Virus record (IMG/VR): IMGVR_UViG_3300010885_019931
Location: 1-48,554 of that record
DNA length: 48,554 nt
Strand: one strand, 5' to 3'
Source: a virus
Shown here: one piece after another, positions 1,832 through 30,797 of the stretch
Layout of the letters: every line of letters starts with the position of its first letter
How positions within the stretch are numbered: the stretch's first letter is position 1
The notes under the pieces: model-generated
Told to the model about the DNA's origin: nothing
Database searches by the model: none
The model's input: only the letters and a program-made list of their open reading frames with translations
Made by a program: the position numbers and the translations under genes

Positions 1832-3289
1832 ATGAGCCAAGCTGTACTAGAAAATTTACCAGTTGAACGAGCAGTTTTGGCTGGCATTTGCCAGTACGGT
1901 TTAGAGGTGTATGTAGAATTAGACTTCATTGAACCTGATTATTTTTCGCATGAGCTTAATCAGGTCATCTTTGGATGTTTGCAAGATATTGTAAGTAGTA
2001 ATCAAAATATTGAATATCTTACAATTTTCTCCACTGCCCAGAAATTGGGAGTTTATGAATTAATCAATAAGACAACAGAGATGGGATTTATCCGATCTCT
2101 GTTTAATTTTCCCATTAACAAAGACAACATCCCTAAATTTGCTGCAAAACTAGCAAAGTTAAAACTTGCCAGAGATATTAAAAAAGCTCTAGTTGGTTGT
2201 GATAAAGCTCTTAATAAAATAACTGGCGATGAAAGCGTTGAAGATATCATTGGACTCGTAGAGAATCCAATTATCGACATTACTTCTGCTGCCTATAAAG
2301 AGCATACAAATAAAACCATGCTTGTTGGAGAAAATATAGATGAGTACGTTCAATATCTTATCGACAATCCTGTTGATTACCTTGGTATCCCCACTGGATT
2401 CAACCGTTTTGACGAAGCTATAGGCGGCGGGATTAGAAGAAAATCCATTTGCTTGATTGGTGCTAGAACTGGTGTTGGTAAAAGTGTTATTTCAACAAAT
2501 GTTGCATTACACGTAGCAAGCAAACTAAATATCCCCGTGCTTTATCTTGATACAGAAATGGATATTGGAGATCAAAGAAATCGTATGCTTGCAAACTTAA
2601 GTAATATTAAGATTAATGATATTGCTAAAGGTAAATTTGCTACAAATTTTATGTCTAAAGAAAGCGTCATTCGATCAGCAAAACTCTTAAAAGATATTCC
2701 ATATCACTATATATCAATTGCTGGTCAGCCATTTGACAACATCCTTAACATTATGAAAAAATGGATTCATCAATACGTAGGAGTTGATGATAATGGCAAG
2801 ACTAAAGACTGCTTAATTATCTATGACTATTTCAAATTAATGAGTTCTGCTGGACTTGGTGCAGCAATGCAAGAATATCAAGCTCTTGGTTTTCAAATTA
2901 CTAAAATGAATGATTTTTGTATTCAGTACGATATTCCATGCTTATCATTTGTGCAGCTTAATAGAGAGGAAGAGATTGCTCAATCAGATCGTTTGCAATG
3001 GCTTGCGACTACAGTTGCAAAATTCCAAGTAAAAAGCGATGAAGAGATAGCAGATGATGGTGATCAGAATGGTAATCGTAAGCTGGTTCCTATAAAAACA
3101 CGTCACGGTTCAGGACTGGAACAGGGTGATTATATCAATATTAAAATGAATGGTGCAACTGCTAAATTATCAGAATGGTATACTAGGAATGAATTGAAAG
3201 CTGGAGCAAATAATAATGGCAATCAAGACAACCAACCCCCTTTCGAAGAACGGGAAGATCAGTCGGGAGAAAGTTTATTCGATATGTGA
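1832..3289 (+). CDS. replicative DNA helicase, DnaB family
   Basis: Hexameric 5'-3' helicase that unwinds DNA at the phage fork. The 485 residues match the family length. The N-terminal helical domain starts LPVERAVLAGI and a linker follows at about 150-190. The RecA-like motor has Walker A GARTGVGKS (residues 210-218, Lys217), an LDTEMD strand typical of DnaB, Walker B LIIYDY (Asp332), and SFVQLNRE, where DnaB proteins carry the sensor Gln and LNR. The late TRHGSG sits where the DnaB family has its arginine finger loop (usually KxRxG). The acidic, Asn/Gln-rich C-terminal tail is encoded in the 74 bases shared with the primase gene, so it is under coding constraint in two frames. The next gene supplies the partner primase. 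Confidence 0.93.
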   Translation: MSQAVLENLPVERAVLAGICQYGLEVYVELDFIEPDYFSHELNQVIFGCLQDIVSSNQNIEYLTIFSTAQKLGVYELINKTTEMGFIRSLFNFPINKDNIPKFAAKLAKLKLARDIKKALVGCDKALNKITGDESVEDIIGLVENPIIDITSAAYKEHTNKTMLVGENIDEYVQYLIDNPVDYLGIPTGFNRFDEAIGGGIRRKSICLIGARTGVGKSVISTNVALHVASKLNIPVLYLDTEMDIGDQRNRMLANLSNIKINDIAKGKFATNFMSKESVIRSAKLLKDIPYHYISIAGQPFDNILNIMKKWIHQYVGVDDNGKTKDCLIIYDYFKLMSSAGLGAAMQEYQALGFQITKMNDFCIQYDIPCLSFVQLNREEEIAQSDRLQWLATTVAKFQVKSDEEIADDGDQNGNRKLVPIKTRHGSGLEQGDYINIKMNGATAKLSEWYTRNELKAGANNNGNQDNQPPFEEREDQSGESLFDM

Positions 3290-4298
3290 AGAGCTATCGG
3301 ATAAAATTCCCGGACTTCTCGATTCTTTAAAAGTTGATTATACTGAGTTTGAAAATAGGATTGCGTTTGCTTGTCCAGTTCATGGTGGCGATAATTCAGA
3401 AGGAGCGTGCATCTTTACTGATGGCACTAGCTCAAAAGGTAATTGGGTATGCTGGACTCATGGATGCGAAAGAGATCATGGTAAAAATATTATAGGTTTC
3501 GTAAAGGGTGTTTTATCTATTAGACAGAATAAAGAAGCAACTTTTTACTCTGCTATTAATTATTGTCTATCTTTTTTAAATAAAAAATTGATAGACATAA
3601 AAGAAGAAAAGATATCTGAGAGTATTTATAATAATAATAAACTCATGGAAGTTTTAGTCCGTGAACCTGAGAAAGTAATATTAAATATATCGAGAGATCA
3701 GGTAATCTCCTCTCTGGAAATACCATCAAAATATTACATTGAAAGAGGTTTTCAGCCTGAGACTCTCGTTGTCTTTGATGTTGGAGAATGTTATAATCCT
3801 AATAGACAGATGCACAATAGAGCAGTCGTTCCTGTTTATGACGAAGACAATAATTATATTGGATGCGTAGGAAGGACACTTGACGAGAACAACAAAAAAT
3901 ATAAATGGATGAACAGTAAAGGCTTTAAAAAGTCTTTCTATTTATATGGCATATGGATTGCAAAACCTCATGTACAAAAGACTTCCAGCATTATTCTTGT
4001 CGAAGGACAAGGAGATGTGTGGAGGCTTTATGAGTCTGGTATAAAGAACGCAGTTGGTATATTTGGTGCAGATTTAAGTGAAGATCAATTGATAGCTCTT
4101 GAGAAATTAGGAGTGATGAATGTTGTAATTCTAACCGATACCGATGAAGCGGGGCAAAAGGCGGCACAGGGGATAATGGAAAGAGGCGGACGAAGATTTA
4201 ATTATTTCCATCCTGCAATATCTAAAAAAGACGTTGGAGATATGTCGATTGCAGAAATTGAAGAAGAGTTAAAACCACAAATTAAGGGGCTTTTTTAA
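3216..4298 (+). CDS. DNA primase, DnaG type (zinc finger plus TOPRIM)
   Basis: Makes RNA primers at the fork with the DnaB-like helicase encoded just upstream. In its 360 residues a CHC2-type zinc motif is visible near the N-terminus (CPVHGG with Cys53 and His56, then CWTHGC at residues 79-84). The TOPRIM core has VEGQGD (Glu263) and LTDTDEAG (Asp308, Asp310), the acidic residues that bind catalytic metal. It is shorter than cellular DnaG (about 580 residues) and lacks room for the C-terminal helicase-binding domain, as is usual for phage primases. The start at 3216 lies inside the helicase gene, with GGAG about 9 bases upstream. Its last base is the first base of the next start (TAATG). Confidence 0.9.
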   Translation: MAIKTTNPLSKNGKISREKVYSICEELSDKIPGLLDSLKVDYTEFENRIAFACPVHGGDNSEGACIFTDGTSSKGNWVCWTHGCERDHGKNIIGFVKGVLSIRQNKEATFYSAINYCLSFLNKKLIDIKEEKISESIYNNNKLMEVLVREPEKVILNISRDQVISSLEIPSKYYIERGFQPETLVVFDVGECYNPNRQMHNRAVVPVYDEDNNYIGCVGRTLDENNKKYKWMNSKGFKKSFYLYGIWIAKPHVQKTSSIILVEGQGDVWRLYESGIKNAVGIFGADLSEDQLIALEKLGVMNVVILTDTDEAGQKAAQGIMERGGRRFNYFHPAISKKDVGDMSIAEIEEELKPQIKGLF

Positions 4299-5116
4299 TG
4301 GGTCAAATTTTAGCATTTTCTGGTAAAAAACAAGCTGGTAAAAATACACTCTGTAACTTTATACATGGATATCAACTTAAGTCGTATAACTTAATTGAAT
4401 CTTTTGAAATTGCTGATACGGGTGATCTTGTCATTGAAACAAATACGAGAGAAGAAAGCGGCAAGATTGTTAAGGGGAAAGGTAAAATTGATGTTACCAG
4501 ACTTGATATTGAATATGTAGTTTGGGCCATGGATAATGTATGGCCTTTTGTTAAGCATTACGCATTTGCAACCGCATTAAAAGAAATGCTTATTGGCCTT
4601 TTTGATATTCCAAAAGAAATGGTATATGGCACTGATGAGCAAAAGAATCAACCTACGCAATATAAATGGGAGAATATGCCAATCAAAGTTAAAGGCAAAT
4701 CTGGATTTATGACTGGTCGAGAATTTATGCAGTATTTTGGAAGTGATATCTGTAGAGAAATCTATCCAGACATTTGGACAGATAGATTAATGAAAGACAT
4801 TAATGCAGAGCAATCAAATTTAGCAGTTATATCCGATGCAAGATATGAAAATGAAATTGAAGCAGTTCAAAAATCTGGCGGAAAAGTAATCCGCTTAACA
4901 CGAACTGTTAAAGGGACAGATAATCATAATAGCGAACTTGCTCTTGATAACTATACTGGATTTGATGCAATAATTGATAATCAAAATATGTCAATTGAAG
5001 AATCGTGTCAGCATTTAGTTCAACTTATTGATAGTTGGGGATGGTTTGATAACAAGGTCATTATACCTCCGCCAGAAAAACCCATAAGAAAGAGTAGCAC
5101 GATGTCAATCAAATGA
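4298..5116 (+). CDS. deoxynucleoside monophosphate kinase (T4 gp1-like)
   Basis: Phosphorylates deoxynucleoside monophosphates to diphosphates with ATP. The N-terminus carries the P-loop SGKKQAGKNT (residues 8-17, Lys15), in the same place as in the T4 gene 1 kinase. Later segments FGSDICREIYPDIWTDRL and VISDARYENEIEAV are typical of this dNMP kinase family: an Arg-rich lid region and the DxRxxNE motif that contacts substrate. 272 residues, slightly longer than T4 gp1 (241). It has a charged insertion at about residues 38-68. Together with dUTPase it forms the nucleotide-supply part of the operon. Members of this family in T4 also act on hydroxymethyl-dCMP; nothing in this window shows whether this one handles a modified base. 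Confidence 0.85.
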   Translation: MGQILAFSGKKQAGKNTLCNFIHGYQLKSYNLIESFEIADTGDLVIETNTREESGKIVKGKGKIDVTRLDIEYVVWAMDNVWPFVKHYAFATALKEMLIGLFDIPKEMVYGTDEQKNQPTQYKWENMPIKVKGKSGFMTGREFMQYFGSDICREIYPDIWTDRLMKDINAEQSNLAVISDARYENEIEAVQKSGGKVIRLTRTVKGTDNHNSELALDNYTGFDAIIDNQNMSIEESCQHLVQLIDSWGWFDNKVIIPPPEKPIRKSSTMSIK

Positions 5117-5123
5117 TTAAAAG

Positions 5124-5179
5124 TTCCTATGTATTGTGTATAGTATTTAGTATTTAGGTACTATAACACAACATAGGAG
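5124..5179 (+). promoter_or_regulatory. hairpin covering the Shine-Dalgarno of the HNH gene
   Basis: In the 69-base gap before the endonuclease gene, 5126-5145 pairs with 5159-5177. Read by eye it gives 7 bp, a 2-base bulge on the left, 5 bp, a 1-base bulge on the right, then 6 bp and a 13-base loop (5146-5158). T5125-A5178 and a T5124-G5179 wobble can extend it. The AGGAG Shine-Dalgarno (5175-5179) for the ATG at 5186 lies entirely in the right arm and would be hidden when folded. Free-standing homing endonuclease genes of T4-like phages are known to be silenced this way on read-through transcripts. There is no T-tract, so it is not a normal terminator. Confidence 0.65.
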
Positions 5180-5185
5180 ACTGCC

Positions 5186-5881
5186 ATGAATCCAAAAGAT
5201 ATTTTAACTAAAGAATTGCTTGAAATAGAGTACATCGATAATAAACTAAGCACAAAAAAAATAGCTGAGAAATATGACATAAAGTCAGATAATTCTGTAT
5301 TTCAAGCTATTAAAAGATATGGCTTATCAAGAGATAGCTTAAAAAATATAACTAATAAAATAACCAAAGATTGGCTATATCAAAAATATATAATAGAAGA
5401 CTTGTCAGCAATAGATATTGCAAAAGAGCTAGGTATGAAAAGAAAATCTAGTATTCTAGATAAATTGCATGAGTTCAATATACCTATAAGAAAAACTACA
5501 AAAACTAAAAAATATATCGTATCTAATAATAAACGTAAAATGCTATACAAAGATATTAGAATTGATTATTGGAACTCATTAATTTTTGGAGCAAAAAGAA
5601 GAAAAATAAGTTTTGAAATATCTATTGAATATGCTTGGAGTGTATTAATTAAGCAAGATAATAAATGCGCATTGTCTGGCATCAGCTTGTCATTTTGCAC
5701 TTCAAGGCTAGATAGAACTTCAGTTCAGACAGCATCTCTGGATAGAATAGACTCCAGTAAAGGATACGTCGAAGGAAATATACAATGGATTCATAAAACT
5801 ATAAATAAAATGAAGATGGATATTTTAGAAAAAGATTTTTTAGATTTTTGCGAAATAATTACTAAATATAGGAGAAAATAA
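5186..5881 (+). CDS. HNH-like free-standing (homing) endonuclease
   Basis: 231 residues. The N-terminal half holds two tandem helix-turn-helix-like repeats of about 50 residues (each of the form W/LLxxxYI...S...IAxxxxI/GM... then a second helix ending in xFN/YGL and a basic stretch), likely DNA reading heads. The C-terminal half has CALSGISL (Cys161) and SLDRIDSSKGYVEGN (184-198) followed by IQWIHK, a block typical of HNH-type nucleases in phages. A second metal-binding Cys pair is not obvious. It interrupts the replication operon between the kinase and the Cas4-like nuclease, has its own leader hairpin, and is more AT-rich than its neighbours, all as expected for a mobile gene. Exact subfamily uncertain. 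Confidence 0.7.
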   Translation: MNPKDILTKELLEIEYIDNKLSTKKIAEKYDIKSDNSVFQAIKRYGLSRDSLKNITNKITKDWLYQKYIIEDLSAIDIAKELGMKRKSSILDKLHEFNIPIRKTTKTKKYIVSNNKRKMLYKDIRIDYWNSLIFGAKRRKISFEISIEYAWSVLIKQDNKCALSGISLSFCTSRLDRTSVQTASLDRIDSSKGYVEGNIQWIHKTINKMKMDILEKDFLDFCEIITKYRRK

Positions 5882-6913
5882 TTGCTCACCACATACTTTC
5901 GGAGTTCTTCATTAGGTCAATATAAGTATTGTCAAATGTCATATTTTTTGAATTACGTTTTGGGGTGGCCATCTCCAAGCAATCTCAAAGCAGATTTGGG
6001 AACAATAACGCACGCAGTATTTGAAACATTAGCAATATGTAAAAAGAGGACTCAATTTAATAAAAGATCTAAAATGAAAATCACTCAGGAACCCTTGGGT
6101 GATTTTTATTTTTCAGAAGATGAATTATTTACTGATGACTTTGTAAATAAAATCTTAGATAGAAGTTTTGAATTTTACAAATCTAATTCTAAGCATAATC
6201 AATTTAACGAGAAAGATTATCAATTTTGCTATAAAATGGTTTGGGATACATTGCCCTACAACAAAGGACAGTTTGATCCACGTAATCGTAAGATTATTGA
6301 TACTGAGCCTCACTTTGATATTCCAATTAATGAGCCTTGGGCAAAATTTACTTTTGATGGGCCAGATGGACCAATTTCTGGAAATCTTGCGATAAAAGGA
6401 ACAATAGATCTTGTCACCGAGCTACCAGATGGTACAATAGAAGTAATCGACTGGAAGACTGGCCAGAGGCTCGATTGGGCCACTGGAGAACGCAAGGACT
6501 ATGATAAACTGATGAAAGATACTCAGCTTTTACTATATCACTATGCTATTGGTAAACTATACCCTATGTATAGATATACATTAATGACTATCTTTTTCTG
6601 TAGAGATGGTGGACCGTTTACGCTCGCTTTTGACAAAGACGATGATGAGTATTTCCTTAATAATACTCTGAAATCAATGTTCGAAGAGATCAAAGCAAAC
6701 CAAAAGCCTAAACCAGTATCACAAGATCGAAATAATTTTAAATGCCAAAAACTCTGCCACTATTTCAAGACAACATGGCCCGGAACAGATAAAACTATGT
6801 GTCATCACGTTGAAGAACAATTGCATACTATTGGAATGACAAAAACCGTTGCCGAATGTTCTAGGCCGGGTTTTGTTATCGGAACATATAAAGATCCCGG
6901 AGCAGTTGAATGA
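5882..6913 (+). CDS. PD-(D/E)XK exonuclease, Cas4/RecB-like with Fe-S cysteines
   Basis: Likely single-strand-specific or recombination exonuclease of the RecB/Cas4 clan. Visible signature: GTIDLV (Asp176), EVIDWKTG (Asp190, Lys192) and a later Gln (Gln215 in DTQLLLYHYA), the D...DxK...QxxxY pattern. One Cys near the N-terminus (Cys17 in QYKYCQMSYF) and three near the C-terminus (Cys288, Cys292, Cys307) match the split four-Cys set that binds an iron-sulfur cluster in Cas4 and AddB. The start is TTG at 5882: GGAG lies 7 bases upstream, and any later ATG would remove Cys17 and the conserved SSSLGQYKYC block. 343 residues. Its stop overlaps the polymerase start (ATGA). It would fit recombination-dependent replication with the annealing protein at 18408. 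Confidence 0.8.
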   Translation: MLTTYFRSSSLGQYKYCQMSYFLNYVLGWPSPSNLKADLGTITHAVFETLAICKKRTQFNKRSKMKITQEPLGDFYFSEDELFTDDFVNKILDRSFEFYKSNSKHNQFNEKDYQFCYKMVWDTLPYNKGQFDPRNRKIIDTEPHFDIPINEPWAKFTFDGPDGPISGNLAIKGTIDLVTELPDGTIEVIDWKTGQRLDWATGERKDYDKLMKDTQLLLYHYAIGKLYPMYRYTLMTIFFCRDGGPFTLAFDKDDDEYFLNNTLKSMFEEIKANQKPKPVSQDRNNFKCQKLCHYFKTTWPGTDKTMCHHVEEQLHTIGMTKTVAECSRPGFVIGTYKDPGAVE

Positions 6914-8406
6914 TAATACCAGCTATTACGACTCACTATTCACTATTGAAAGGCTTCATCAAGCCAGATGAGGCAGCTAAAAAGTGCAAAGAGCTTGGCT
7001 ACACTCATTGTTTGCTTGCTGATAACTCATTGAGTGGAGTTGTAGAGTTCTTTAGCTGTATGAAAAAAGAAGGCGTAGTCCCCATCATTGGTTGGAAAGC
7101 TGATGATGGTTACTACATTGCTAAATCATTAGCTGGATATAAATTTCTTATAAAATTAGTATCTGGCGAGAATGTACTTTATCAAGATAAAGATTTGCAA
7201 TTCTATAAAGATAGCGATCTTGCTTTGATGGAAGTATATTATGCAGAACAAAAGGATGTTATTCTCCATAGGATATCATTATGTTCTGGTTTTAAGACAA
7301 CACTTAAAAGAGCTAAAGATATAGACATGGGAGAATATAAAAAGTTCTTTGATTCTGATCATTATTTCTTTCATCCTGTGCATAGAATTATACCTCATCA
7401 AAAACAATACTTTGGAACTAAGCAACTAATCTCTGAGCTTGAAGATTATACTATTTTCTGTAAACCTAAACTTCCTAAAGTAGATTGCGAAGGTCAAACA
7501 GAAGAAGAGTATATCACTCAATTATGTAGAAATGGATGGAGATCAAAATTATCACATCTCAAAGGTGACAAGCGTAATGAGTATGCAGATCGTATAAAAT
7601 ATGAATTATCTATTATTAATGGCTTTGGGCTTGCTGGGTATTTTTTAATCGTTCAAGATATTATTACTCACGTAAGAAATAATGGATGGTTGCCGGGACC
7701 GGGAAGAGGTTCGGCTGGAGGATGCTTAGTGTCATATTTACTGTCAATTACTGAAATTGACCCTATTAAATATGATCTTCTATTCTCTAGATTTCTAAAT
7801 GCTGGACGCTTTAGTAAAGATAATATATCACTGCCAGATATTGATATGGATGTGCCATCACAATATCGAGATCAAATTATTGATTATCTTAAAGATAAAT
7901 ATGGTCACAGTAGAGTGTTTCAAATGATTACTTTTGGTCGTCTTCAGGGGCGATCAGTGATTAAAGAAGTCGCTCGTATTTACGCCGACCTGTCTTTCTC
8001 AGAACTAAACGAGATTACAGAAAGTTTACCACAAGAGGCAAGCATTTCGGACGAGCTTGAAGAGATGGACATAAAGTCTGTTATTCTTTGGACTCTTGAA
8101 AATAAACCAGATAAATTAGAAAAGTGGTGCAAGCGAGATAAAGAGGGAAATTTAACTGGTGAGTTGTCAGATATGTTTGATCTTGCTATAAGAATAGAAG
8201 GAACTTTTAAAAGTCAAGGCAAACACCCTGCTGGAGTCATCATTTCTAACGATGATCTTATTAACGATGCTCCATTAATTAAGGATAAGGATGGAAATCC
8301 AATTGTGGGATTTGAAATGCATGACTTAGATAAAGTAGGACTAACAAAGTTTGATGTCCTTGGCGTTAACCTATTGGATAAAATTATGGAAATTACACAT
8401 GAATAA
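6910..8406 (+). CDS. DNA polymerase III alpha, N-terminal half (PHP remnant and palm)
   Basis: Carries the complete catalytic centre of a C-family polymerase but stops soon after it. Residues 1-100 resemble a PHP domain (THYSLLKG; GVVPIIGWKA), yet the metal-binding His/Asp of active PHP domains are gone (LLADNS replaces the usual LTDHG). The palm has PGPGRGSAGG (262-271), LLFSRFLN, PDIDMD (Asp310 and Asp312 catalytic) and TKFDVLG, whose Asp482 is the third carboxylate, equivalent to Asp555 of E. coli DnaE. The frame ends at residue 498, 16 residues after it. Fingers, tail and OB domains are in the gene at 9355. No intein motif is seen at the end. It must assemble with that second protein to work. 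Confidence 0.9.
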   Translation: MIIPAITTHYSLLKGFIKPDEAAKKCKELGYTHCLLADNSLSGVVEFFSCMKKEGVVPIIGWKADDGYYIAKSLAGYKFLIKLVSGENVLYQDKDLQFYKDSDLALMEVYYAEQKDVILHRISLCSGFKTTLKRAKDIDMGEYKKFFDSDHYFFHPVHRIIPHQKQYFGTKQLISELEDYTIFCKPKLPKVDCEGQTEEEYITQLCRNGWRSKLSHLKGDKRNEYADRIKYELSIINGFGLAGYFLIVQDIITHVRNNGWLPGPGRGSAGGCLVSYLLSITEIDPIKYDLLFSRFLNAGRFSKDNISLPDIDMDVPSQYRDQIIDYLKDKYGHSRVFQMITFGRLQGRSVIKEVARIYADLSFSELNEITESLPQEASISDELEEMDIKSVILWTLENKPDKLEKWCKRDKEGNLTGELSDMFDLAIRIEGTFKSQGKHPAGVIISNDDLINDAPLIKDKDGNPIVGFEMHDLDKVGLTKFDVLGVNLLDKIMEITHE

Positions 8407-8608
8407 TAGATTTTTAGACTATGCAACAGTTATCAGAGATGGTAATGATATTGACTATAAAGATGTTTCGCTTTGTGATCTTAGGAATCATGTTCCTTGG
8501 TATCGCGGAAAAAAGAATGGCATCTATCAAGTCCATAGCAATTCATACTCACAAATATTTTACGATCTAAATGAAGCAATTGATAAATTTATAGAATTGA
8601 GAAAATAA
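8399..8608 (+). CDS. small protein inside the split polymerase locus
   Basis: 69 residues from ATG 8399, which overlaps the end of the polymerase N-half by 8 bases. The frame could be opened earlier at 8351, but that would only extend into the polymerase gene without a ribosome site. The stop shares a base with the exonuclease start (TAATG). The sequence is soluble, with a central DLRNHVPWYRGKKNGIY and a C-terminal amphipathic helix (DLNEAIDKFIELRK). No family is recognised. Being sandwiched between polymerase and proofreading exonuclease, a replisome linker role is possible but is only inference. Confidence 0.6.
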   Translation: MNNRFLDYATVIRDGNDIDYKDVSLCDLRNHVPWYRGKKNGIYQVHSNSYSQIFYDLNEAIDKFIELRK

Positions 8609-9315
8609 TGGCATTGAACACATATCGCGACTATATTGTTTTTGATTTTGAGACCACTGGTATCAACCCTTATGGTTGTCAATTGACGCAGATTGCCGCT
8701 GTAGTGGTCCACGGGAAGAAGTTGACTCTTCAGCCCGGCGGAACCTTCAACATCGAAGTAAGGCCAGAATTTGACGACGAGAAGGCTATCGCCGCTGGCT
8801 TTGATCCGGTTGAAGCGAAAGCTCTTGAAGTCACTCGCAAAACCCGCGAAGAACTTGAAAAAGCCGTTGGGCCTAAAGTAGCATGGCAGCAATTCATTAA
8901 CTTTGTAAATAAGTATAATCCTAAAGGCAGTCCTTACTATGCTCCAATTCCGGTTGGATATAATATTAATAATTATGACTTGCCAATTGTACAGCGATAT
9001 TGTAAGCTATATGGGCCTTGTGAAGAGAAGACAGGTCGTCAGAAATTATTCAACCAAGTGTTTAAGGTTGATATGATGGATAACCTGTTTATGTGGTTTG
9101 AAGATCATGAGACCGTACAAAAGTTGAATATGAATTATATGCGAGAGTATCTTGGCTTTTCAGAAGAATCAAAAGCAAATGCTCACGATGCGTTGTCTGA
9201 CGTTATTGACACTGCTAATATCTTCATCAGGTTCTTAAAATACCATAGACGACATAGTAGCAATACTAAATTTGAAAAATCGTTTGCAAATGTACAAATG
9301 GATATTACATTATGA
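8608..9315 (+). CDS. DnaQ-like DEDDh 3'-5' exonuclease
   Basis: Proofreading-type exonuclease. All acidic motifs are visible: FDFETTG (Asp13, Glu15), NNYDLPIVQRY (Asp124) and AHDALSD (His193, Asp198), which makes it the DEDDh subclass like E. coli epsilon. 235 residues; the segment between the first two motifs contains a charged insertion (about residues 45-100) longer than in DnaQ. It lies between the two polymerase halves, so the replicative polymerase and its editing nuclease are one locus; the polymerase's own PHP domain appears inactive. Bases 8701-8880 are about 52% G+C by hand count (93 of 180), clearly above neighbouring polymerase sequence, which may reflect separate origin or codon selection. 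The stop overlaps a micro-frame (ATGA). Confidence 0.9.
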   Translation: MALNTYRDYIVFDFETTGINPYGCQLTQIAAVVVHGKKLTLQPGGTFNIEVRPEFDDEKAIAAGFDPVEAKALEVTRKTREELEKAVGPKVAWQQFINFVNKYNPKGSPYYAPIPVGYNINNYDLPIVQRYCKLYGPCEEKTGRQKLFNQVFKVDMMDNLFMWFEDHETVQKLNMNYMREYLGFSEESKANAHDALSDVIDTANIFIRFLKYHRRHSSNTKFEKSFANVQMDITL

Positions 9316-9368
9316 AAATAACATCAGTCAACGATTGTGTTGAAAGGACGTTTAATGGGTGTTTTTAA
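9312..9368 (+). CDS. possible 18-residue leader frame
   Basis: An ATG overlapping the exonuclease stop (ATGA) opens a frame of 18 codons (MKITSVNDC...) that ends at 9368, just past the ATG chosen for the polymerase C-half at 9355. The Shine-Dalgarno AAAGGA of that gene lies inside the frame. It may be a coupling leader that keeps ribosomes moving from the exonuclease to the polymerase fragment, or it may be chance. No protein-level evidence exists. Confidence 0.2.
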   Translation: MKITSVNDCVERTFNGCF

Positions 9369-10932
9369 TATTGATGATTACACAGACGAAGCAACTTGGG
9401 ATTTGATTAGCGATGGTAAGACTAAAGGCGTATTCCAGCTAGAATCTAAATTAGGTTCTAGTTGGGCAAAGCGAGTTAAGCCGCGAAATATTGAAGAATT
9501 GGCAGACTTGATCTCTATCATTCGTCCCGGAACATTAGAAGCTATGTTAGATGGTAAATCTATGACAAAGCACTATGTTGATCGTAAGTGGAAGATAGAC
9601 GAAGTGAGGTATGTAGATAATGCTCTTGAGCCATTATTATCAAATACATATGGTATTATTGTATATCAAGAGCAAGCCATGAAAATTGCTACAGCTTTGG
9701 GTGGATTTACGCCTGAAGAAGCCGATTCATTACGTAAAGCTATGGGTAAAAAAGATTCCGCACTTATGAAAGAAGTCCGAGAAAAATTTATTAATGGGTG
9801 TAAGAATCAGAAGATAGTGAGTGATACATCTGCCGCACAAATATTTGACTGGATTCAAGCGTCTGCAAGATACTCATTCAACAAGAGTCACGCAGTTGCT
9901 TATGCTATCAACTCTTTTCGATCTGCTTACTGTAAAACTCATCTACCTTTAAAGTTTTACGAGGCATATCTTAATCATGCCCATAATAAACCAGACAAAC
10001 AAAGAGAATTAAAAGAACTAATCATGGATGCAAAACTGTCAAACATTGACGTATTGCCTCCTAGATTAGATTTTTTATATAGAACATTCACTCGCGATGA
10101 GCCAAAGAATATTATATATTTTGGATATAGCAATGTTAAAAGCGTAGGTGAGGGAGAACAGGATAAGATTGAGAAAATCCTTAAGGACGCTATCATTTCT
10201 TCAGATAAAATGCTGAAAGATTTTAACTGGCTTGACTGCCTCTTTCTAATTGGTCATCACGTAAAGAAAAATGCCTTCGCATCATTAGTGAGCGTAGGAG
10301 CTTTCACTGGTAGAAATAATAAACTTACTAGAAATGGAATGCTTTTTGAATACGATATTTGGAATAAGCTAACTGCTAAAGAGCAGGGATGGATTCTAGA
10401 AAGATGGAAGACTTTAAAGAATGTCACTTTTAAAGATCTATTCAAAGTCATGATTAATGAGAATGATAAAATCAACTCCAAGCGCATTACTGCTGTTATT
10501 GATCTATATCAAGCATTAGATAATCCACCATATTCTATAGAAGACGACTACACTTGGATTGCTGATGTGGAACAAAAGTTAATGGGTTGTGCCTTAACTT
10601 GTTCTAAGGTAGATATGTCATCAGATGATGTAAATATTACCTGTGCAGAGATAGCAAAAGGTGAAGTTACATCAATGAAAGATGCTTGCTTGGCGATAAG
10701 AATTAATGAAGTGAAGGAGTATACCCTTAAAAAAGGGCAAAACATAGGAAGGGCGATGGGGTTTGTATGCGGAGAAGATAATACTGGTCAATTAGATTCA
10801 ATTACTTTGTTTTGTGATGAATTTGAAAGGTTTAAAAAGTTGCTTTTTATAGGCAACACGGTATTATTATATGGAGAAGTCCAAGAGAAAAAGGACAAAT
10901 CTCTAGTTGTTAAAAACATGTTACAAATTTAG
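9355..10932 (+). CDS. DNA polymerase III alpha, C-terminal half (fingers to OB domain)
   Basis: Continues the C-family polymerase from shortly after the point where the 6910 gene stops. Start chosen at ATG 9355, which has GAAAGGACG just upstream; a GTG at 9337 in the same frame is less likely. Landmarks in order: KGVFQLES (24-31), RPGTLEAM, GIIVYQEQAM (about 100-108), LRKAMGKK (126-133), YSFNKSHAVAYA (173-184), the DNA-binding helix-hairpin-helix region ending LVSVGAF, and a C-terminal OB domain (about 430-525). All are recognisable against E. coli DnaE. 525 residues, so the two halves total about 1020, within the normal DnaE range. About a dozen residues of a normal DnaE are missing at the junction. 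No intein C-terminal motif is present. Confidence 0.9.
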   Translation: MGVFNIDDYTDEATWDLISDGKTKGVFQLESKLGSSWAKRVKPRNIEELADLISIIRPGTLEAMLDGKSMTKHYVDRKWKIDEVRYVDNALEPLLSNTYGIIVYQEQAMKIATALGGFTPEEADSLRKAMGKKDSALMKEVREKFINGCKNQKIVSDTSAAQIFDWIQASARYSFNKSHAVAYAINSFRSAYCKTHLPLKFYEAYLNHAHNKPDKQRELKELIMDAKLSNIDVLPPRLDFLYRTFTRDEPKNIIYFGYSNVKSVGEGEQDKIEKILKDAIISSDKMLKDFNWLDCLFLIGHHVKKNAFASLVSVGAFTGRNNKLTRNGMLFEYDIWNKLTAKEQGWILERWKTLKNVTFKDLFKVMINENDKINSKRITAVIDLYQALDNPPYSIEDDYTWIADVEQKLMGCALTCSKVDMSSDDVNITCAEIAKGEVTSMKDACLAIRINEVKEYTLKKGQNIGRAMGFVCGEDNTGQLDSITLFCDEFERFKKLLFIGNTVLLYGEVQEKKDKSLVVKNMLQI

Positions 10933-10945
10933 GAGTTTTGAGGTT

Positions 10946-11290
10946 ATGAATATTTGCTGTTTTGTAGGTAAGTTAGCCAATGATCCCGATCTCAGGGAAA
11001 TCAATGGTACGCATGTTGTGAATTTTTCTCTTGCAGTTGAGGACTATCGCAAAGATAAGAGTGGGGAAAAACATAGAAGAATAGATTTTCTTGATTTTGA
11101 AGCATGGGATAGTGGAGCCACTACTATTGCAAAACATTTCAAGAAAGGCGATCTACTTATTATTGAAGCAGAAGCTCGCCAACATAAGTGGATGTCAAAT
11201 GATCAAAAACGCCAGAAAATTATTTTTAGAGTTAAGACGTTTAAATCATCGGGATGTAATTCAATTAAACAAGACTATGAGATGGAATAA
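10946..11290 (+). CDS. ssb: single-stranded DNA-binding protein (OB fold)
   Basis: 114 residues from ATG 10946 (AGGAG and GAGG upstream; a longer frame from 10907 runs back into the polymerase gene and is rejected). The pattern MNxCxFVGKLANDPDLR, then VVNFSLAVEDY and IDFLDFEAWDSGATTIAKHFKKGDLLIIEAEA, is that of bacterial SSB: glycine turn, LAV strand, W in the DFxxxxxW strand, and the KGDxxxIEA beta-strand. The C-terminus ends in DYEME, acidic but without the usual DDDIPF peptide, so protein recruitment may differ from the host SSB. It follows the polymerase directly and would coat the lagging-strand template. Confidence 0.82.
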   Translation: MNICCFVGKLANDPDLREINGTHVVNFSLAVEDYRKDKSGEKHRRIDFLDFEAWDSGATTIAKHFKKGDLLIIEAEARQHKWMSNDQKRQKIIFRVKTFKSSGCNSIKQDYEME

Positions 11291-11293
11291 AAT

Positions 11294-12946
11294 ATGTCAA
11301 GAAAAAAAGTTTTATTTGTAACTGAAGCGTCCTTTCATCCAACTGGATATTCAGTATATACCAAAGAAGTATTGAGCAGATTGTCAAAACATCCAGAACT
11401 TGAAGTGGCTGAGCTTGGATGCTATGCAACATCTGAATCTGAAGAGATAAAGTCACTAACTTGGAGATTCTATCCGAATACTCCCTCTCCAAGCGACCAA
11501 GAAGCAACTAATATTTATAACTCATCAATGTCAAATAAATTTGGTGAGTTTGCATTTAATAATGTGCTAATTGATTTTCAGCCAGATTTTGTAATGGATA
11601 TTCGCGACTGGTGGATGTTAGAATTTGAAGAAAGATCTCCTTTTAGAAATTTCTTTAATTGGGCGATTATGCCAACAGTTGATGCAGAACCTCAGAATCA
11701 AACATGGATGGATACGTATTCTGATGCAGATGGATTATTTGCTTATTCTGAATTTGGTAGAGATACCATGAAGAAGCAAGCTAAGAATTTAAACTTTGTA
11801 GATGTTGCTTCGCCTTGTGCTAGCGATACATTTTATCCTATACAAGATAAAGTAAAGTTTAGAGAAGAAATGGGTGTTGATCAAGACGCAATTATCTTTG
11901 GTACTGTGATGAGAAACCAAAGAAGAAAATTATATCCTGATCTTTTTAAAGCTTTTAAGTTATTTTTAGATCAGAATCCTAGCATGAACAATGTATATTT
12001 ATATTGCCATACTGGGTATCCTGATGTTGGATGGGACATTCCAGATCTCATTAAGGACAATGGACTTTCTAACAGGGTACTATTTACATACAAGTGTAAA
12101 AAGTGCGGAAAGATTAAGCCGATGTTCTTTAATGATGCGTTAGCATTTTGTAATGATTGTCAAATGTTTGCATCAACATTAGTTGGTATCTCTAATAAAA
12201 TGGATGATACTGACTTAAATAAAGTATACAATATTTTTGATGCTTATATTCAATGGGCAAATAGTGAAGGCTGGGGAATGCCTCAACTAGAAGCTGCATA
12301 CGCAGGATCACCAGTGATATCTGTTCATTACTCTGCAATGGAATCGCTGATTGATAATATCAAGGGGATTGGTGTCAAGCCTGTCGGTTTCTACAAAGAG
12401 TTAGAAACAGGATGTAATAGAGCAGTCCCAGACAATCAAGGATTAGCAGACATAATTAAAACTCTAGCTTATGATTCTACTAAAAGAAAATATGCAGCAA
12501 CTAAATGCCATGAAAATGCTAAGAAGATTTATAATTGGGACTACACTGCTGCCAAGTGGTTAAAGTACTTCTTAAGTACCCCAACTAAAGATCCTAAGCA
12601 AACATGGTATTCGCCAAGTCGTATTTTTAATCCTGCAACACAGATTCCAAACGACCTATTGAATATGCCAGCGGTCGAACAGGCCAACTGGCTGTTTATC
12701 AATGTTTTAGGAAGAGTGGATTTATTAAATAAGAGCATGTGGAAGAGAATAGTAAGAGATCTTTCTCATAGAATTTCAATGACATCTATGATTCCGGGAT
12801 ATTATTATAATGACTTTGCCCATCCAGACATGGAGAGAAGGGCTGAAGATTTTGATTTTAATAAAGCATATCAAATGTGTCAACAAATCGCGCATAACTT
12901 TAATCAATGGGAACAATTGAGAATTGAAAGATTGGGTGTTAAATGA
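11294..12946 (+). CDS. GT-B glycosyltransferase with inserted zinc ribbon
   Basis: 550 residues. N-terminal Rossmann-like domain begins KKVLFVTEASFHPTGYSVYTKEVL, the glycine-bearing acceptor loop typical of GT4-like enzymes. The C-terminal donor domain has GTVMRNQRRK and the EX7E signature SEGWGMPQLE (Glu325 and Glu333). An unusual insertion lies between the RVLFTY strand and the IFDAYIQWANS segment: CKKC (268, 271) and CNDC (286, 289) form a zinc-ribbon-like knuckle. A C-terminal extension of about 100 residues follows the catalytic core (after about 440) and is not typical. First gene of the sugar cassette; its stop overlaps the next glycosyltransferase (ATGA). Donor and acceptor cannot be told. 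Confidence 0.82.
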   Translation: MSRKKVLFVTEASFHPTGYSVYTKEVLSRLSKHPELEVAELGCYATSESEEIKSLTWRFYPNTPSPSDQEATNIYNSSMSNKFGEFAFNNVLIDFQPDFVMDIRDWWMLEFEERSPFRNFFNWAIMPTVDAEPQNQTWMDTYSDADGLFAYSEFGRDTMKKQAKNLNFVDVASPCASDTFYPIQDKVKFREEMGVDQDAIIFGTVMRNQRRKLYPDLFKAFKLFLDQNPSMNNVYLYCHTGYPDVGWDIPDLIKDNGLSNRVLFTYKCKKCGKIKPMFFNDALAFCNDCQMFASTLVGISNKMDDTDLNKVYNIFDAYIQWANSEGWGMPQLEAAYAGSPVISVHYSAMESLIDNIKGIGVKPVGFYKELETGCNRAVPDNQGLADIIKTLAYDSTKRKYAATKCHENAKKIYNWDYTAAKWLKYFLSTPTKDPKQTWYSPSRIFNPATQIPNDLLNMPAVEQANWLFINVLGRVDLLNKSMWKRIVRDLSHRISMTSMIPGYYYNDFAHPDMERRAEDFDFNKAYQMCQQIAHNFNQWEQLRIERLGVK

Positions 12947-21290: not shown

Positions 21291-22973
21291 TTAACTAATA
21301 TCATTACAATTAAGTACTACCTCTTGACCACATCCAACATCCCTGACTTCACCGCTGTCCCCAATTTCCAATTTTGTTCCATTACTAAATCGGTAAGATG
21401 GATTTGTTAAAGTTGAAACATACATTTTATTATTTAAACCATAGCCTTTAATCTCAAGTTCATCATTCCATATGCAGCTACAAATTGCTTTTGGGCTACT
21501 GACTTTAGGATCAAGACATTTTTCAACATACATACTTTTTTCTATATTTGGTCCGCCCCCAACAGGGGGAGGAATGATCCCACCCGGAGGAGTGGGAGGA
21601 CTAGATGGGGGTTTAGCAGGAAGACTGACTTTATAAGAGCAATGGCGGCAATCTATAGAACCAGTATAAGTTACCCATCCTTTTGCGGTACAGGCGCAGT
21701 CTGTATTACCCCCAGCTTGATAAGTCCTAGTGTACCAGCCACCATAGCGATGTACATATTGCATTATATCATCATAATCGTTTGCTAAATCGCCTAATTG
21801 TTTTTTAACTTCACTAAGCTCTGGTTTTTCTGGGCATGGCGATTCTTCAGTGCCATAGAATTGCTTTAACCATCCAAAAGAGCAATTATCCCCAGTAATC
21901 CATTGTCCATCAACTTTAGTAGATTTGCATTCCATTTTTAACATTTCAGCACTAAGTGGAAAACCCGAATTCCTCTCAGGCGGAGGATTTAATAATGTAT
22001 TACAGGAAAATCCCATAAAATCAGTTGAGCCACCTCCATAGGGATCGTGACATATTGGCTTGAATTGAGGAGGACCATATGGAAATGTTCCAACTCCCGG
22101 CTCAACATATACAGCTTGATCAACTATAAAGTGATTTAGATTGCGTATCATGCAACTGCCAAAAGTATCGCAACAAGGAGCTTGCGTTGGTTGATATCCT
22201 TCTGATCTATCATTAGGATTTACGCCGCCAGAGTTCATTAAATTCTTTTTTAAGCAATCATAATTATCTTCATTTGCAAATCCTGCCGCTCTTGGATGAC
22301 TGCTGCAAGAGGGCTGATAAGTGGGAAGATACATAAAATTAGGCTTGTGCCGTCTTCCGGACTCAAATGTCCAAGTGGTATCTTTAGGGCAATCGGCAGA
22401 TCCGGCCTTAGTAATTCCCACCATTATCGGCTCTTTTGATCCCGGTAAAGGAGGAAGAAACTTAACGCATCGACCCCCATACTTTAAAAAGTACGACTGA
22501 TTTGCTAGTTTTGCATCGCATCCATTTTCAGTCCATTCCGGATTAAGTCCACATTGACAAGGATATGGCTGTATATCATTAGGAGACAAATTTAAAGTCT
22601 TAAAGGATTGCAGCTTTGCTCCCTTGCCCTTATTTAAGGAGCATACAACTGGTTTAATTGGAGATCCATCAGCATTTGTGGCTGTACTCCCAAAACTCGC
22701 GGACTCAACCATATCCGATGGAATATTTCCTCCGGCTATAGAATTTAATCCATCACTAGTTGCTAATTTTCTCCTAAAATATTGTTTTGAATAATTAAAA
22801 ACAGCAACCTTTTTTCCCAATCCGCTAGCTTGCATGTCATAAGGATTTAATTCATCCGATGACCCAAATGCAAATTGGTACTTAGCTCTTTTTGCATTAA
22901 TGCCTTGGCTTCTTAATATTTTTTGTTCATCTGTTACTTCTGGTGGTTTATTTGTAGGTGCTGGATCAGGCAT
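21291..22973 (-). CDS. Cys-rich virion protein A
   Basis: 560 residues with about 25 cysteines counted by eye (for example PYPCQCGLN, APCCDTFGSC, TDCACTAK, DCRHCSY, AICSCIW), many in CxC or CxxC pairs. This is unusual for a phage structural protein made in the reducing cytoplasm, and suggests metal binding or disulfides after release. A Pro/Gly-rich linker (residues about 460-485, PPSSPPTPP then GGIIPPPVGGG) separates the main part from a C-terminal beta-rich domain. No signal peptide or known family is recognised. The upstream neighbour is also 560 residues and Cys-rich with a Pro linker, so the two may be related in architecture though the sequences differ. Confidence 0.6.
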   Translation of the reverse strand: MPDPAPTNKPPEVTDEQKILRSQGINAKRAKYQFAFGSSDELNPYDMQASGLGKKVAVFNYSKQYFRRKLATSDGLNSIAGGNIPSDMVESASFGSTATNADGSPIKPVVCSLNKGKGAKLQSFKTLNLSPNDIQPYPCQCGLNPEWTENGCDAKLANQSYFLKYGGRCVKFLPPLPGSKEPIMVGITKAGSADCPKDTTWTFESGRRHKPNFMYLPTYQPSCSSHPRAAGFANEDNYDCLKKNLMNSGGVNPNDRSEGYQPTQAPCCDTFGSCMIRNLNHFIVDQAVYVEPGVGTFPYGPPQFKPICHDPYGGGSTDFMGFSCNTLLNPPPERNSGFPLSAEMLKMECKSTKVDGQWITGDNCSFGWLKQFYGTEESPCPEKPELSEVKKQLGDLANDYDDIMQYVHRYGGWYTRTYQAGGNTDCACTAKGWVTYTGSIDCRHCSYKVSLPAKPPSSPPTPPGGIIPPPVGGGPNIEKSMYVEKCLDPKVSSPKAICSCIWNDELEIKGYGLNNKMYVSTLTNPSYRFSNGTKLEIGDSGEVRDVGCGQEVVLNCNDIS

Positions 22974-23012
22974 TTTTTCTCCTTTTCTATATTATAGCAA
23001 ATAATAAAATAT

Positions 23013-24695
23013 TTACCACGTTTTCTTGCCTGTTTGTTTGTAGTATTCTTGTCCGCCGTTTGCTGTATACGCAACATAATCAAAAGTTGTGGAATTATTG
23101 CCAACTTGAAAATTGGAGTTGGTTGGTGGAGTAGGTGGTGGGCTGGCAGTGCCATTACATGTTTTTTCACATGTAAACTCATTAGGGCAATAATTAAAAT
23201 CATTATATGGCCTAATTGGATATGCGCTATCTTCACCAGTAGATCCTTTACAGCTACAGCCTTTTTTACCAGTAGGACCATCTGCAATTTTTCCACCTGT
23301 TAAATACTTTTTAGTCATCCAATTATTTTGGCCGAATTCAGTATTTTGTAATTTTTCAGCACCACCCTCTAAATATTTTTCTAATATTGATTTTTTATGA
23401 GACAATATTCTAATTTTAAATTTTACCTCTGGAAGATCATATGTTTCATCTAATATTTTATAACATCCATCGTCCGCCCTGTCCCATCTATCAAAATGTT
23501 CTTCATATGCTTTAAAATGGAATCTTCTAGATGTTCCTCCATATTTGCCGCACGTTCCCCATCCTAAATTAGACCAGCAATACCCCGCAAACCTTAATGC
23601 CGCCCGTTCGCATCTAATTCTATTATTGCCTGTTCCACCCGTTATTGACGACCCCGTTACACTACTGCCACCATGACCATCGGGCATTGGAATTCCATTT
23701 GCATCGGTATTAATATTAGACGGATCTGGCGGATCTGGAAGATCATTAAATTTAAATAATTTATCAAAATGATTACATGCTGGCAAACTGGTTAATTTTA
23801 CTAAAACTCCCTGTTCTACGTGATATGGGAGTAAAGGAGCATATCCACTATAATTCTTTGTTTGACCATCTTTTTCATCAACTGCTACGTGTTCCACTGT
23901 TCCAATAATATCATTAGATGTAAACACAGCTTCATTTGCATGTAAACAAACTGCATTCTCTGCTGCTGGTTGTATTCCAACTGGAGTAACTGCTTCGCAA
24001 GTTCTAATCGTCATTCTTTTTCCACCACCTAAATATAGCCAGCTAAAAAATCGTCCGGGCAATCTTGAATTTTGAGATAAGCAAATTTCCATGCATTCTT
24101 GATCGCCTTTACACTTTTTCCCACAATCAACATCTGGAGTATAAATCATATATGTTTGTTTATATGGCTCATTAAGTTTTTTCTTGGTAAAAGGATCAAT
24201 AGTAATTGTTTCTTCTACGAACACAGCAACATGCCAATCGGGGTTATAGGGGCATTGACAAAATAATTGACCCTGATACAATCCCCAGTCTCTATAGAAT
24301 GGAGTTGAATTTTGATCTTCTAATTCCCAAGCTGTGGGTTTAATATGCATTTGCACATCGCTATATACGCCCGGTGATTGACAATGGCCCATGATACCGT
24401 ATGTAGCACTCTTGCCTTCAGGATCATCAGACTTAGCTCTAAGATACCAAGCTCCACGACCAATCAATTGATTGTTTTGATTAATTTCTTCTATGGGCTT
24501 GCAACCGGACGCAATACCCATTAAGTGGCCACTAGCATCTTGAGTAATTTTACCAAACACAAAATCATGCGATGCTTGCATTCCAATCATTTTCCACTTA
24601 TGGTATAATTTTCTATTTGGATATTCAAATGCAGATAGCGTATAATCTATAGGTATTATTGTATCGACATAATCACAATTTTCGCACTTAGCCAT
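23013..24695 (-). CDS. Cys-rich virion protein B
   Basis: 560 residues with about 22 cysteines: an N-terminal MAKCENCDY, LFCQCPYN, CGKKCKGDQECMEIC, GCSCKG and a C-terminal NYCPNEFTCEKTC. A Pro/Thr linker (PPPTPPTNS) precedes a short C-terminal beta segment. The central region is aromatic-rich and includes RMTIRTCEAVTPVG. No family is recognised. AGGAGTTATTT precedes the ATG and the gene is 9 bases from its upstream neighbour. Probably part of the tail tip or a fibre; this rests on position. Confidence 0.6.
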   Translation of the reverse strand: MAKCENCDYVDTIIPIDYTLSAFEYPNRKLYHKWKMIGMQASHDFVFGKITQDASGHLMGIASGCKPIEEINQNNQLIGRGAWYLRAKSDDPEGKSATYGIMGHCQSPGVYSDVQMHIKPTAWELEDQNSTPFYRDWGLYQGQLFCQCPYNPDWHVAVFVEETITIDPFTKKKLNEPYKQTYMIYTPDVDCGKKCKGDQECMEICLSQNSRLPGRFFSWLYLGGGKRMTIRTCEAVTPVGIQPAAENAVCLHANEAVFTSNDIIGTVEHVAVDEKDGQTKNYSGYAPLLPYHVEQGVLVKLTSLPACNHFDKLFKFNDLPDPPDPSNINTDANGIPMPDGHGGSSVTGSSITGGTGNNRIRCERAALRFAGYCWSNLGWGTCGKYGGTSRRFHFKAYEEHFDRWDRADDGCYKILDETYDLPEVKFKIRILSHKKSILEKYLEGGAEKLQNTEFGQNNWMTKKYLTGGKIADGPTGKKGCSCKGSTGEDSAYPIRPYNDFNYCPNEFTCEKTCNGTASPPPTPPTNSNFQVGNNSTTFDYVAYTANGGQEYYKQTGKKTW

Positions 24696-24704
24696 AAATA
24701 ACTC

Positions 24705-26459
24705 CTAAAAACCAGTAAAGTTTCCGCCACCACCACCAGTGCCACCTCCGGGAACGCCTGCGCCGCCACTTAAGCCGCCTCCAGTTGGACTACCCCCTCC
24801 TGTAAGTCCACCACCACCTGAATATGCGCCTCCGCCAGTAGAAGTGCCTCCACCACCTAATCCACCAGCAAGAACAGATGTGAACACGCCTCCATTCCCA
24901 GCATCGCCACCTCCATTACTGCTGCCCGGTTTTGGACACGGGTCATCATATACTGCATAAGACTTGCCTTCACATTCCGGATCTAGCGCAGAGCAATAAA
25001 CATTATTAGTAAAAGTAATATTACCATCTTCGTCGGCGGATTTGCAATACTTACAACAGTCTGCTCCAGCACCTAAATAGTCTTGCGCCTTGCCAAAATT
25101 TTCTCCACTTTTAGTTCGATAATATATTCTTCTTGTTGGCCCATCGCAAACATTGTAGGGTTTTCTTACTGGTTTGTTGTCAACTTTTTCATGATAATAA
25201 TCTGCTCCCGTTACTACCCTAAATTTTCCATCCTTTGTCGGCATGGTGTCAAAATCAGAACCATCTCTCTCTTGAGCATAATCGTCAATAGGAGCGTCAG
25301 TTTGTAAAATTTCCTCTCCCTTTAAATCAGTTCCATCTAGTGTGATTTTTGCAAGAATTTGTATTGGTCCACTTGCAGTTTCTCCAGTAGCTGGATTCTG
25401 ATATAGAAATACGTTTTCATTAATTCTACATGAATGAAATGGTGATATCAGTTTCTTTACACTATTTCCACCTTTAGACTTATTATCTTTATCGACACAT
25501 TTATATCCTGTTTTTATTACAAGTTTGCATGTCCCATTACATAATACCGGAAATACCTCTAAAGCCACCATTACTTTTTGAGAAGATTTATCACATCCTG
25601 AATCAGCAGCTTCTCGGTCAGATATAGTTTTTGGATCTCCGGGATTATCCGCAGTCGCTTTAGCAAATTCCACTTCTTTGTAAAATGATCCATTCATAGC
25701 GATACTGTCAGGGGCAGATGCGATTGGCATAGTATCTATTTTACCATTGCCACTGGACCCTGTTATATCAGATCCATATGTATCTGACCCAATTTTAAAT
25801 ACTGGTTCTTGGTAAGTTTTATTTATTTGACCACCCTCTGATTCGACAGAAAGCTCTGCTGTAAAAACAGGCACGAGTTTGTTTGCAATCATATAATTTT
25901 TAATTCTAGTTAGCTCTGCATCAGCATTATCAGAAGGGTTAGTTGTAGTAATGCCGGGTACTGCTTCCCAGTCGCCATTTATGTCCTGCTTATATATGGA
26001 ATATATTTTTTTCTTAGTTCCGTCTTTTTCTTTTTTTCCAGAAATATCTATAGTCCATCGCCTACAACTCCAAGGCCAACATTCTGGTAATCTTTGATAA
26101 AAATTAGAAGATGAAACCATTAATAATACGCATCTATTATCAGTAGTCTCAATTCTTTTATCTACTTCGTTCATAGCTTCGCCAATTGGAATGGGTGCAG
26201 TTCTAGAAAATCCCCCAATCTTATAAGCAAGGTGAGTAGATTTACATACCATGTCCTCATATCTATTATTGCCGATTTCGTGAAGAGGTACGCTAGGATT
26301 TTTATTATCCTTTGGTTTCTGGTATCTAACATTATCATTAGTGGGCAAGGATGCCATTTGGTAATAATCCCAAGAATAGATTACTCCATTCACGCCGCCA
26401 CCATTTGTGCGTCTTACATATACCAATACCTCAGATCCTGTTATATCGTCGCAACTCAT
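24705..26459 (-). CDS. virion protein with Gly-rich C-terminal tail
   Basis: 584 residues from the ATG at 26459 (MSCDDITGSEVLVYVRR), which overlaps the upstream stop as ATGA and has GGAG 8 bases before it; a start 33 bases earlier is rejected. The body contains paired Cys sites (CSALDPEC, CCKYC). The last 70 residues are almost pure Gly with Ser, Thr and Pro in short GGGS, GGGT and GGGL units, forming an extended flexible or polyglycine-II-like segment such as some phage adhesins use. No named family is recognised. Part of the run of four tail-associated proteins of 513-584 residues. Confidence 0.6.
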   Translation of the reverse strand: MSCDDITGSEVLVYVRRTNGGGVNGVIYSWDYYQMASLPTNDNVRYQKPKDNKNPSVPLHEIGNNRYEDMVCKSTHLAYKIGGFSRTAPIPIGEAMNEVDKRIETTDNRCVLLMVSSSNFYQRLPECWPWSCRRWTIDISGKKEKDGTKKKIYSIYKQDINGDWEAVPGITTTNPSDNADAELTRIKNYMIANKLVPVFTAELSVESEGGQINKTYQEPVFKIGSDTYGSDITGSSGNGKIDTMPIASAPDSIAMNGSFYKEVEFAKATADNPGDPKTISDREAADSGCDKSSQKVMVALEVFPVLCNGTCKLVIKTGYKCVDKDNKSKGGNSVKKLISPFHSCRINENVFLYQNPATGETASGPIQILAKITLDGTDLKGEEILQTDAPIDDYAQERDGSDFDTMPTKDGKFRVVTGADYYHEKVDNKPVRKPYNVCDGPTRRIYYRTKSGENFGKAQDYLGAGADCCKYCKSADEDGNITFTNNVYCSALDPECEGKSYAVYDDPCPKPGSSNGGGDAGNGGVFTSVLAGGLGGGGTSTGGGAYSGGGGLTGGGSPTGGGLSGGAGVPGGGTGGGGGNFTGF

Positions 26460-27997: not shown

Positions 27998-28017
27998 GTC
28001 TTGTCCTTGTCCTTGTA

Positions 28018-30780: not shown

Positions 30781-30797
30781 TTCATATTTCCTTTATA

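Follow-up and report, generated by a model that had tools for sequence, protein, structure and literature searches.

The active site of a replicative DNA polymerase is normally formed by one chain. Split family B replicative polymerases are known from T4-like phages (gp43A/B) and from Methanothermobacter (PolB), and fractured genes that carry split inteins, with endonucleases encoded between the pieces, were reportedly described by Dassa and colleagues in 2009 (cited in PMC6892783). Within the C family, the Pol III core of Escherichia coli combines a one-chain alpha subunit of the DnaE fold with a separate DEDDh exonuclease of the epsilon type, while cyanobacteria encode DnaE in two genes (NCBIfam PRK09532 and PRK07373) that are rejoined by an intein. 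Among phages, Bacillus phage Jayan (PQ299153) carries DnaE as a pair of ORFs separated by a small one, and a break of the same type is represented by PHROG 13169/7513 plus 12219. A split Pol III alpha has already been published for the group 2.2 jumbo phages (Iyer et al., 2021; PMC7824862). The jumbo-phage enzyme is minimal, its two genes lie far apart, the Mg-binding part is in the C-terminal protein, a family B polymerase is present alongside, and the two proteins are proposed to make up a single enzyme together.

Pol III alpha is encoded by two separate genes

In the window (the whole stretch of viral DNA that was analysed, 48,554 nucleotides) Pol III alpha is encoded by two separate genes and is broken at the palm/fingers boundary (Table 1). 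The N-half consists of a degenerate, shortened PHP domain followed by the palm and thumb, the DNA_pol3_alpha profile being matched completely from 1 to 260 and the PHP profile partially. Alignment with E. coli alpha paired D310, D312 and D482 of the N-half with D401, D403 and D555, and the GPGRGS nucleotide-binding motif was located in the same half as these three catalytic carboxylates. The C-half aligned to positions 589–1055 of NCBIfam PRK05673, that is through the OB region, and contains the fingers domain and the OB fold C-terminal to the palm that characterize DnaE-type (C family) polymerases. No single polypeptide represents the enzyme; against the TIGR00594 cut-off of 434 bits the N-half and C-half scored 317 and 256 bits, each below it.

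In the E. coli alignment the N-half extends to about residue 571, and homology is picked up again by the C-half at 592, after about 10 extra residues, which leaves only a short linker unaccounted for. The break site lies between the equivalents of about 571 and 585–590, which is the palm/fingers boundary of the E. coli alpha structure. The ORF of the C-half is listed from a GTG at 9337, its frame being closed upstream by a TAA at 9319; the in-frame ATG at 9355, with AAAGGA ahead of it, is probably the better start. The 18-codon ORF at the exonuclease/C-half junction is apparently the remnant, after an internal deletion, of a 71-aa ORF that occupies the same interval in the relative L017.

The first-pass annotation of this DNA had placed the end of the N-half 16 residues beyond the third catalytic Asp, D482, and this agrees with both the ORF and the E. 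coli alignment. Its assignment of all three carboxylates to one polypeptide and of the fingers, DNA-binding and OB parts to the other was matched by Pfam, by PRK05673 and by the alignment. Between the halves it had described an interval of about 0.95 kb encoding a 69-residue protein and a complete DEDDh exonuclease; the gap measures 948 nt, and the five exonuclease residues are present.

Table 1. Features of the polymerase region of the window
Feature	Coordinates	Strand	Description
DnaB-type helicase	1832-3289	+	Pfam; upstream cassette gene
DnaG-type primase	3216-4298	+	Pfam; upstream cassette gene
dNMP kinase	4298-5116	+	Pfam; upstream cassette gene
PD-(D/E)XK nuclease	5882-6913	+	Pfam PDDEXK_1; directly upstream of N-half, conserved operon
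dnaE N-half	6910-8406	+	498 aa; Pfam DNA_pol3_alpha 2e-73 and PHP 1.7e-12
Protein S	8399-8608	+	Orphan protein, 69 aa; overlaps N-half stop by 8 nt
Exonuclease (exo)	8608-9315	+	DEDDh 3'-5' exonuclease, epsilon/PolC-exo like, 235 aa; Pfam RNase_T 3e-13; PHROG DNA polymerase exonuclease subunit 8e-26
18-codon ORF	9312-9368	+	MKITSV...VERTFNG matches both ends of L017 ORF 8420-8635 (by eye)
dnaE C-half	9355-10932	+	525 aa; Pfam DNA_pol3_finger 3e-44; fingers, DNA/clamp-binding region, OB
SSB	10943-11290	+	Pfam SSB 4e-19; directly downstream of C-half, conserved operon

Conservation of the break and of the intervening genes

Scans of viral contigs, supplemented by a small number of phage records and by the corresponding region of the window, gave 239 numbered loci, some contigs having been fetched repeatedly; profile searches detected the order N-half, exonuclease, C-half in 181 of them. 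These contained 104 distinct N-half sequences, and identity among the N-half relatives fell to about 40%. All of the N-halves end soon after KFDxLGxxLLxKIM and all of the C-halves start just upstream of TKGVFQLES. Neither the catalytic Asp residues nor the fingers motifs vary within the family, and both halves are kept together throughout. The extended cassette of helicase, primase, dNMP kinase, PD-(D/E)XK nuclease, N-half, S, exo, C-half, SSB and two glycosyltransferases was exact in 90 loci.

The dN/dS ratios of close pairs were 0.026–0.045 for the N-half, 0–0.12 for S, 0.024–0.030 for the exonuclease and 0.037–0.066 for the C-half, and N-half values were 0.03–0.08 where computable. Such low ratios indicate selection on the protein product of each piece, with strong purifying selection acting on all four genes. 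The content of the interval between the halves varied from S and exo alone to HNH genes (L004, L010 and L060) or other genes (L033 and L071), and the distance ranged from less than 1 kb to more than 6 kb. In L137 S is separated from exo by about 6 kb of metabolic genes, and the halves of L150 are a similar distance apart. The variable inserts imply that the halves act as independent genes.

Several other features were recorded in these genomes. An HNH-like endonuclease ORF at 5186-5878 of the window, between the dNMP kinase and the PD-(D/E)XK nuclease, is related to the HNH ORFs between the polymerase pieces of relatives. Inspection of L137 by eye (2305-8230) identified aldehyde dehydrogenase, aminotransferase-like and saccharopine dehydrogenase-like ORFs in the polymerase cassette, possibly a phage-borne set for amino-acid catabolism. 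Six large proteins encoded on the minus strand at 21291-32513 of the window had no PHROG match, nor did the window's virion proteins. A host or prophage origin was considered and rejected, the scan of genome contigs having returned only cellular-type DnaE with identities of up to 46%.

For protein S, 89 distinct homologues were identified in the equivalent genomic position, and YQV (residues 43–45) and A60 are invariant in the 52 members aligned. The AlphaFold2 model (pLDDT 92) is a small alpha-beta fold in which four strands are flanked by two helices. Neither sequence profiles nor Foldseek gave a convincing match to S in Pfam, PHROGs, NCBIfam, the PDB or BFVD; the best PDB profile match was gpW (E 1.3), and the best Foldseek matches had E values of 0.98 in the PDB and 0.017, to an unnamed protein, in BFVD. 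The contigs of L058, L060, L061, L063, L142 and L165 yielded no S, and those of L075 and L076 yielded neither S nor a clear exonuclease. This means that S is not strictly required. It probably serves the polymerase machine as an accessory factor, with losses in some lineages. A more specific role, as a new polymerase subunit that is translated from the end of the N-half gene and aids the meeting of palm and fingers or keeps the exonuclease at the seam between them, is unlikely; if it did apply, alpha would be assembled, not synthesised whole, within a four-protein replicase core.

Assembly of the halves and the question of rejoining

The exonuclease residues D13, E15, D124, H193 and D198 are invariant in 18 homologues, and matches among isolates are remote (Bacteroides phages, about 25%). 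The gene remains linked to dnaE even at the loci with an N+C fusion (L065, L198 and L164). The PHP domain of the window's subgroup is more than 100 residues shorter than that of, for example, L051 and has none of the usual metal-ligand motifs, most of which are retained in L051-like relatives. This makes the separate exonuclease the evident candidate proofreader, which would act on the split alpha as an epsilon-like subunit. Both the exonuclease and S may belong to a polymerase complex, the support being their conserved linkage. Contigs of 91–173 kb from 12 relatives, whose completeness is uncertain, each contained one DnaE fingers domain and no family A or B polymerase, suggesting that the split enzyme is probably the only replicative polymerase of the phage. 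A search of the relatives gave no beta clamp.

The natural fusion of L065 (854 aa, comprising N and the part of C before the OB) was modelled with 76 family sequences to a pLDDT of 92.2 and a pTM of 0.89, and its N and C parts pack together as one DnaE. The best Foldseek match in the PDB was DnaE with an E value of 1e-42, and query-normalised TM scores to the E. coli, Thermus and Mtb enzymes were 0.71–0.77. The window break maps onto a loop near residues 499–504 of this model that joins two helices. The predicted structure supports, without proving it, docking of the separate halves in the standard DnaE way.

In the mechanism proposed here, one transcript would give rise to N- and C-halves that are translated independently, the start/stop overlaps and close starts being suggestive of translational coupling. 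The halves would then dock via the normal palm-fingers interface to form a single active site, the peptide bond never being made. To this site the N-half would contribute the three metal-binding Asp and GPGRGS, and the C-half the fingers, the DNA/clamp-binding region and the OB. A two-gene alpha assembled non-covalently, with the exonuclease as proofreader, a likely role as sole replicase and an origin by duplication, is considered highly probable as a joint explanation.

One alternative to independent polypeptides is a continuous chain restored through an intron that escaped recognition, through protein trans-splicing, or through frameshifting or bypassing by the ribosome, and rejoining systems do occur in the clade. 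In the dnaE of L198 (9500-10900) an intein starts after NRYSFNR and DnaE resumes after IAVSN, and in that of L164 (7000-8200) a split intein is located at TPGRG/SAAGC; each has an endonuclease-like ORF between the parts, and the two sites are different conserved DnaE motifs. L075 (5809-8361), and likewise L076, contains a cis intein in the C-half just before CFNKAH, near the cyanobacterial DnaE intein site; in both, the N and C genes overlap and exo is not between them. Because inteins can be recognised in these sister genomes, their absence from the window type is informative. Inspection of the inner ends of the window genes gave no intein motifs, the N-half ending in LLDKIMEITHE, within DnaE homology, and the C-half starting with MGVFNIDDYTDE, within about 10 residues of DnaE homology. 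Group I and II introns at the break were rejected on the Rfam searches, which gave no match at the gathering score in the whole window and none at E≤1 in 8250-9500. A frameshift or bypass was rejected, as the offset from the N-half stop to the S start varies among relatives (-1, -5, -8, +2, +4, +5 and others), as does the distance; a conserved frameshift site is thus lacking. The interval also encodes conserved genes under selection and can extend over the metabolic genes noted above, and joining of the halves into one chain is extremely unlikely. Decay or repurposing of a split gene, for example with another role for the N-half while the host replicase is used, would fit the degenerate PHP of the window's subgroup but is contradicted by the invariant catalytic and fingers motifs, by the low dN/dS of both halves, by their joint retention everywhere and by the adjoining helicase, primase and SSB; it is very unlikely. 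The split has been retained in many diverged lineages of a large family of uncultured phages. The chance of a sequencing or assembly artefact is negligible: although one relative, L014, ends in DnaE sequence that resembles a chimera, the arrangement recurs in all the distinct N-half sequences counted above, from many separate metagenome assemblies, which also exceeds what chance would give. The L014 fragment (12012-12734), a glycosyltransferase start that continues in frame into bacterial-type DnaE sequence at the end of the contig, is probably an assembly chimera and was left out of consideration.

The first-pass annotation had likewise seen no intein motifs at either inner end. It had named a frameshift, intein or intron restoring a continuous polymerase as the finding that would overturn its reading, and none was detected; the gene order that it proposed to look for in related phages proved widespread. 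Its suggestion of a non-covalent assembly holds as far as the intein-free, two-gene organization and the DnaE-like packing of the L065 fusion are concerned, the assembly itself being what we infer. The split inteins at other sites in sister lineages and the published jumbo-phage case had escaped it.

Origin of the split and relation to known systems

In the tree of N+C, all split forms together with L065, L198, L164 and L075 formed one fully supported clade. The gene order is N-S-exo-C in the window, (N+C1)-S-exo-C2 in L065, where the OB part of the C-half is a separate ORF (9674-10234), and S-exo-(N+C) in L198. All three orders can be derived from dnaE-S-exo-dnaE, which favours duplication: if dnaE-S-exo was duplicated in tandem and the two dnaE copies then underwent complementary (reciprocal) losses, N-S-exo-C would result. 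This appears to be the simplest origin and is favoured over insertion or re-fusion; no full duplicated intermediate was present among the loci examined. In L074 (5977-7550) an additional break is located within the C-half near profile position 275, the genes overlapping, which indicates that fragmentation is continuing.

A split ancestral to the clade that was re-fused twice, once in L065 and once in L198/L164, is a serious possibility, though short of an even chance. The fused forms are nested inside the split clade, and the split forms were monophyletic in 0 of 200 bootstrap trees, but the branches are long and the split forms as one clade were not rejected by the AU test (p=0.158). Fusion of N and C together with movement of S-exo upstream would also require extra rearrangements. 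If re-fusion did occur, it would itself demonstrate assembly of the halves in the normal geometry. Rather less probable is insertion of a homing endonuclease or fractured split intein into the linker, with S-exo accompanying or replacing it and the splicing element later lost. The HNH genes between the halves of L004, L010 and L060 and the split-intein fractures of L198 and L164 are consistent with such an event, but the break lies in a poorly conserved linker and not at a conserved motif of the kind favoured by intein insertion, and insertion leaves unexplained why S-exo lies between other pieces in L065 and ahead of the fused gene in L198. Reciprocal loss after duplication remains the preferred origin.

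The clade provides a natural two-piece Pol III alpha in which palm and fingers have been kept separate by selection in widely diverged phages, sister genomes in which a single enzyme occurs fused, split or interrupted by inteins, and in S a conserved orphan partner protein available for testing. Annotation of phage polymerases with full-length models will miss or misname split enzymes of this type. In the open-access literature, subscription papers being outside the scope, no report of the N-S-exo-C arrangement was found.

When the locus is compared with the systems described at the outset, the split family B polymerases likewise consist of two polypeptides, but their fold is unrelated to that of the window polymerase. 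The window shares with the E. coli core a DnaE-fold alpha and a separate epsilon-type exonuclease, but differs in its divided alpha, its shortened PHP, the additional protein S and a tau-binding tail that is not recognised. L198 and L164 fit the fractured-gene type, in which gene pieces are parted by other genes; the window differs in having an intein-free break between palm and fingers and, as intervening genes, a proofreading exonuclease and S. The cyanobacterial DnaE is split elsewhere, as the early reading of the sequence had stated: its break corresponds to about residue 172 of the window C-half (position 35 of PRK07373), so that the window break is farther upstream. The break of the Jayan and PHROG type precedes the DxD carboxylates, near residue 302–310, whereas that of the window follows the third Asp. 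Like the jumbo phages, the window has a phage C-family polymerase in two proteins; in contrast to them it encodes a near full-length DnaE in adjacent genes with exo and S between, the three carboxylates are in the N protein, and family A and B polymerases were not found in the 12 large relatives. A phage split Pol III alpha as such is already known; the break site, the content and the gene arrangement are different here.
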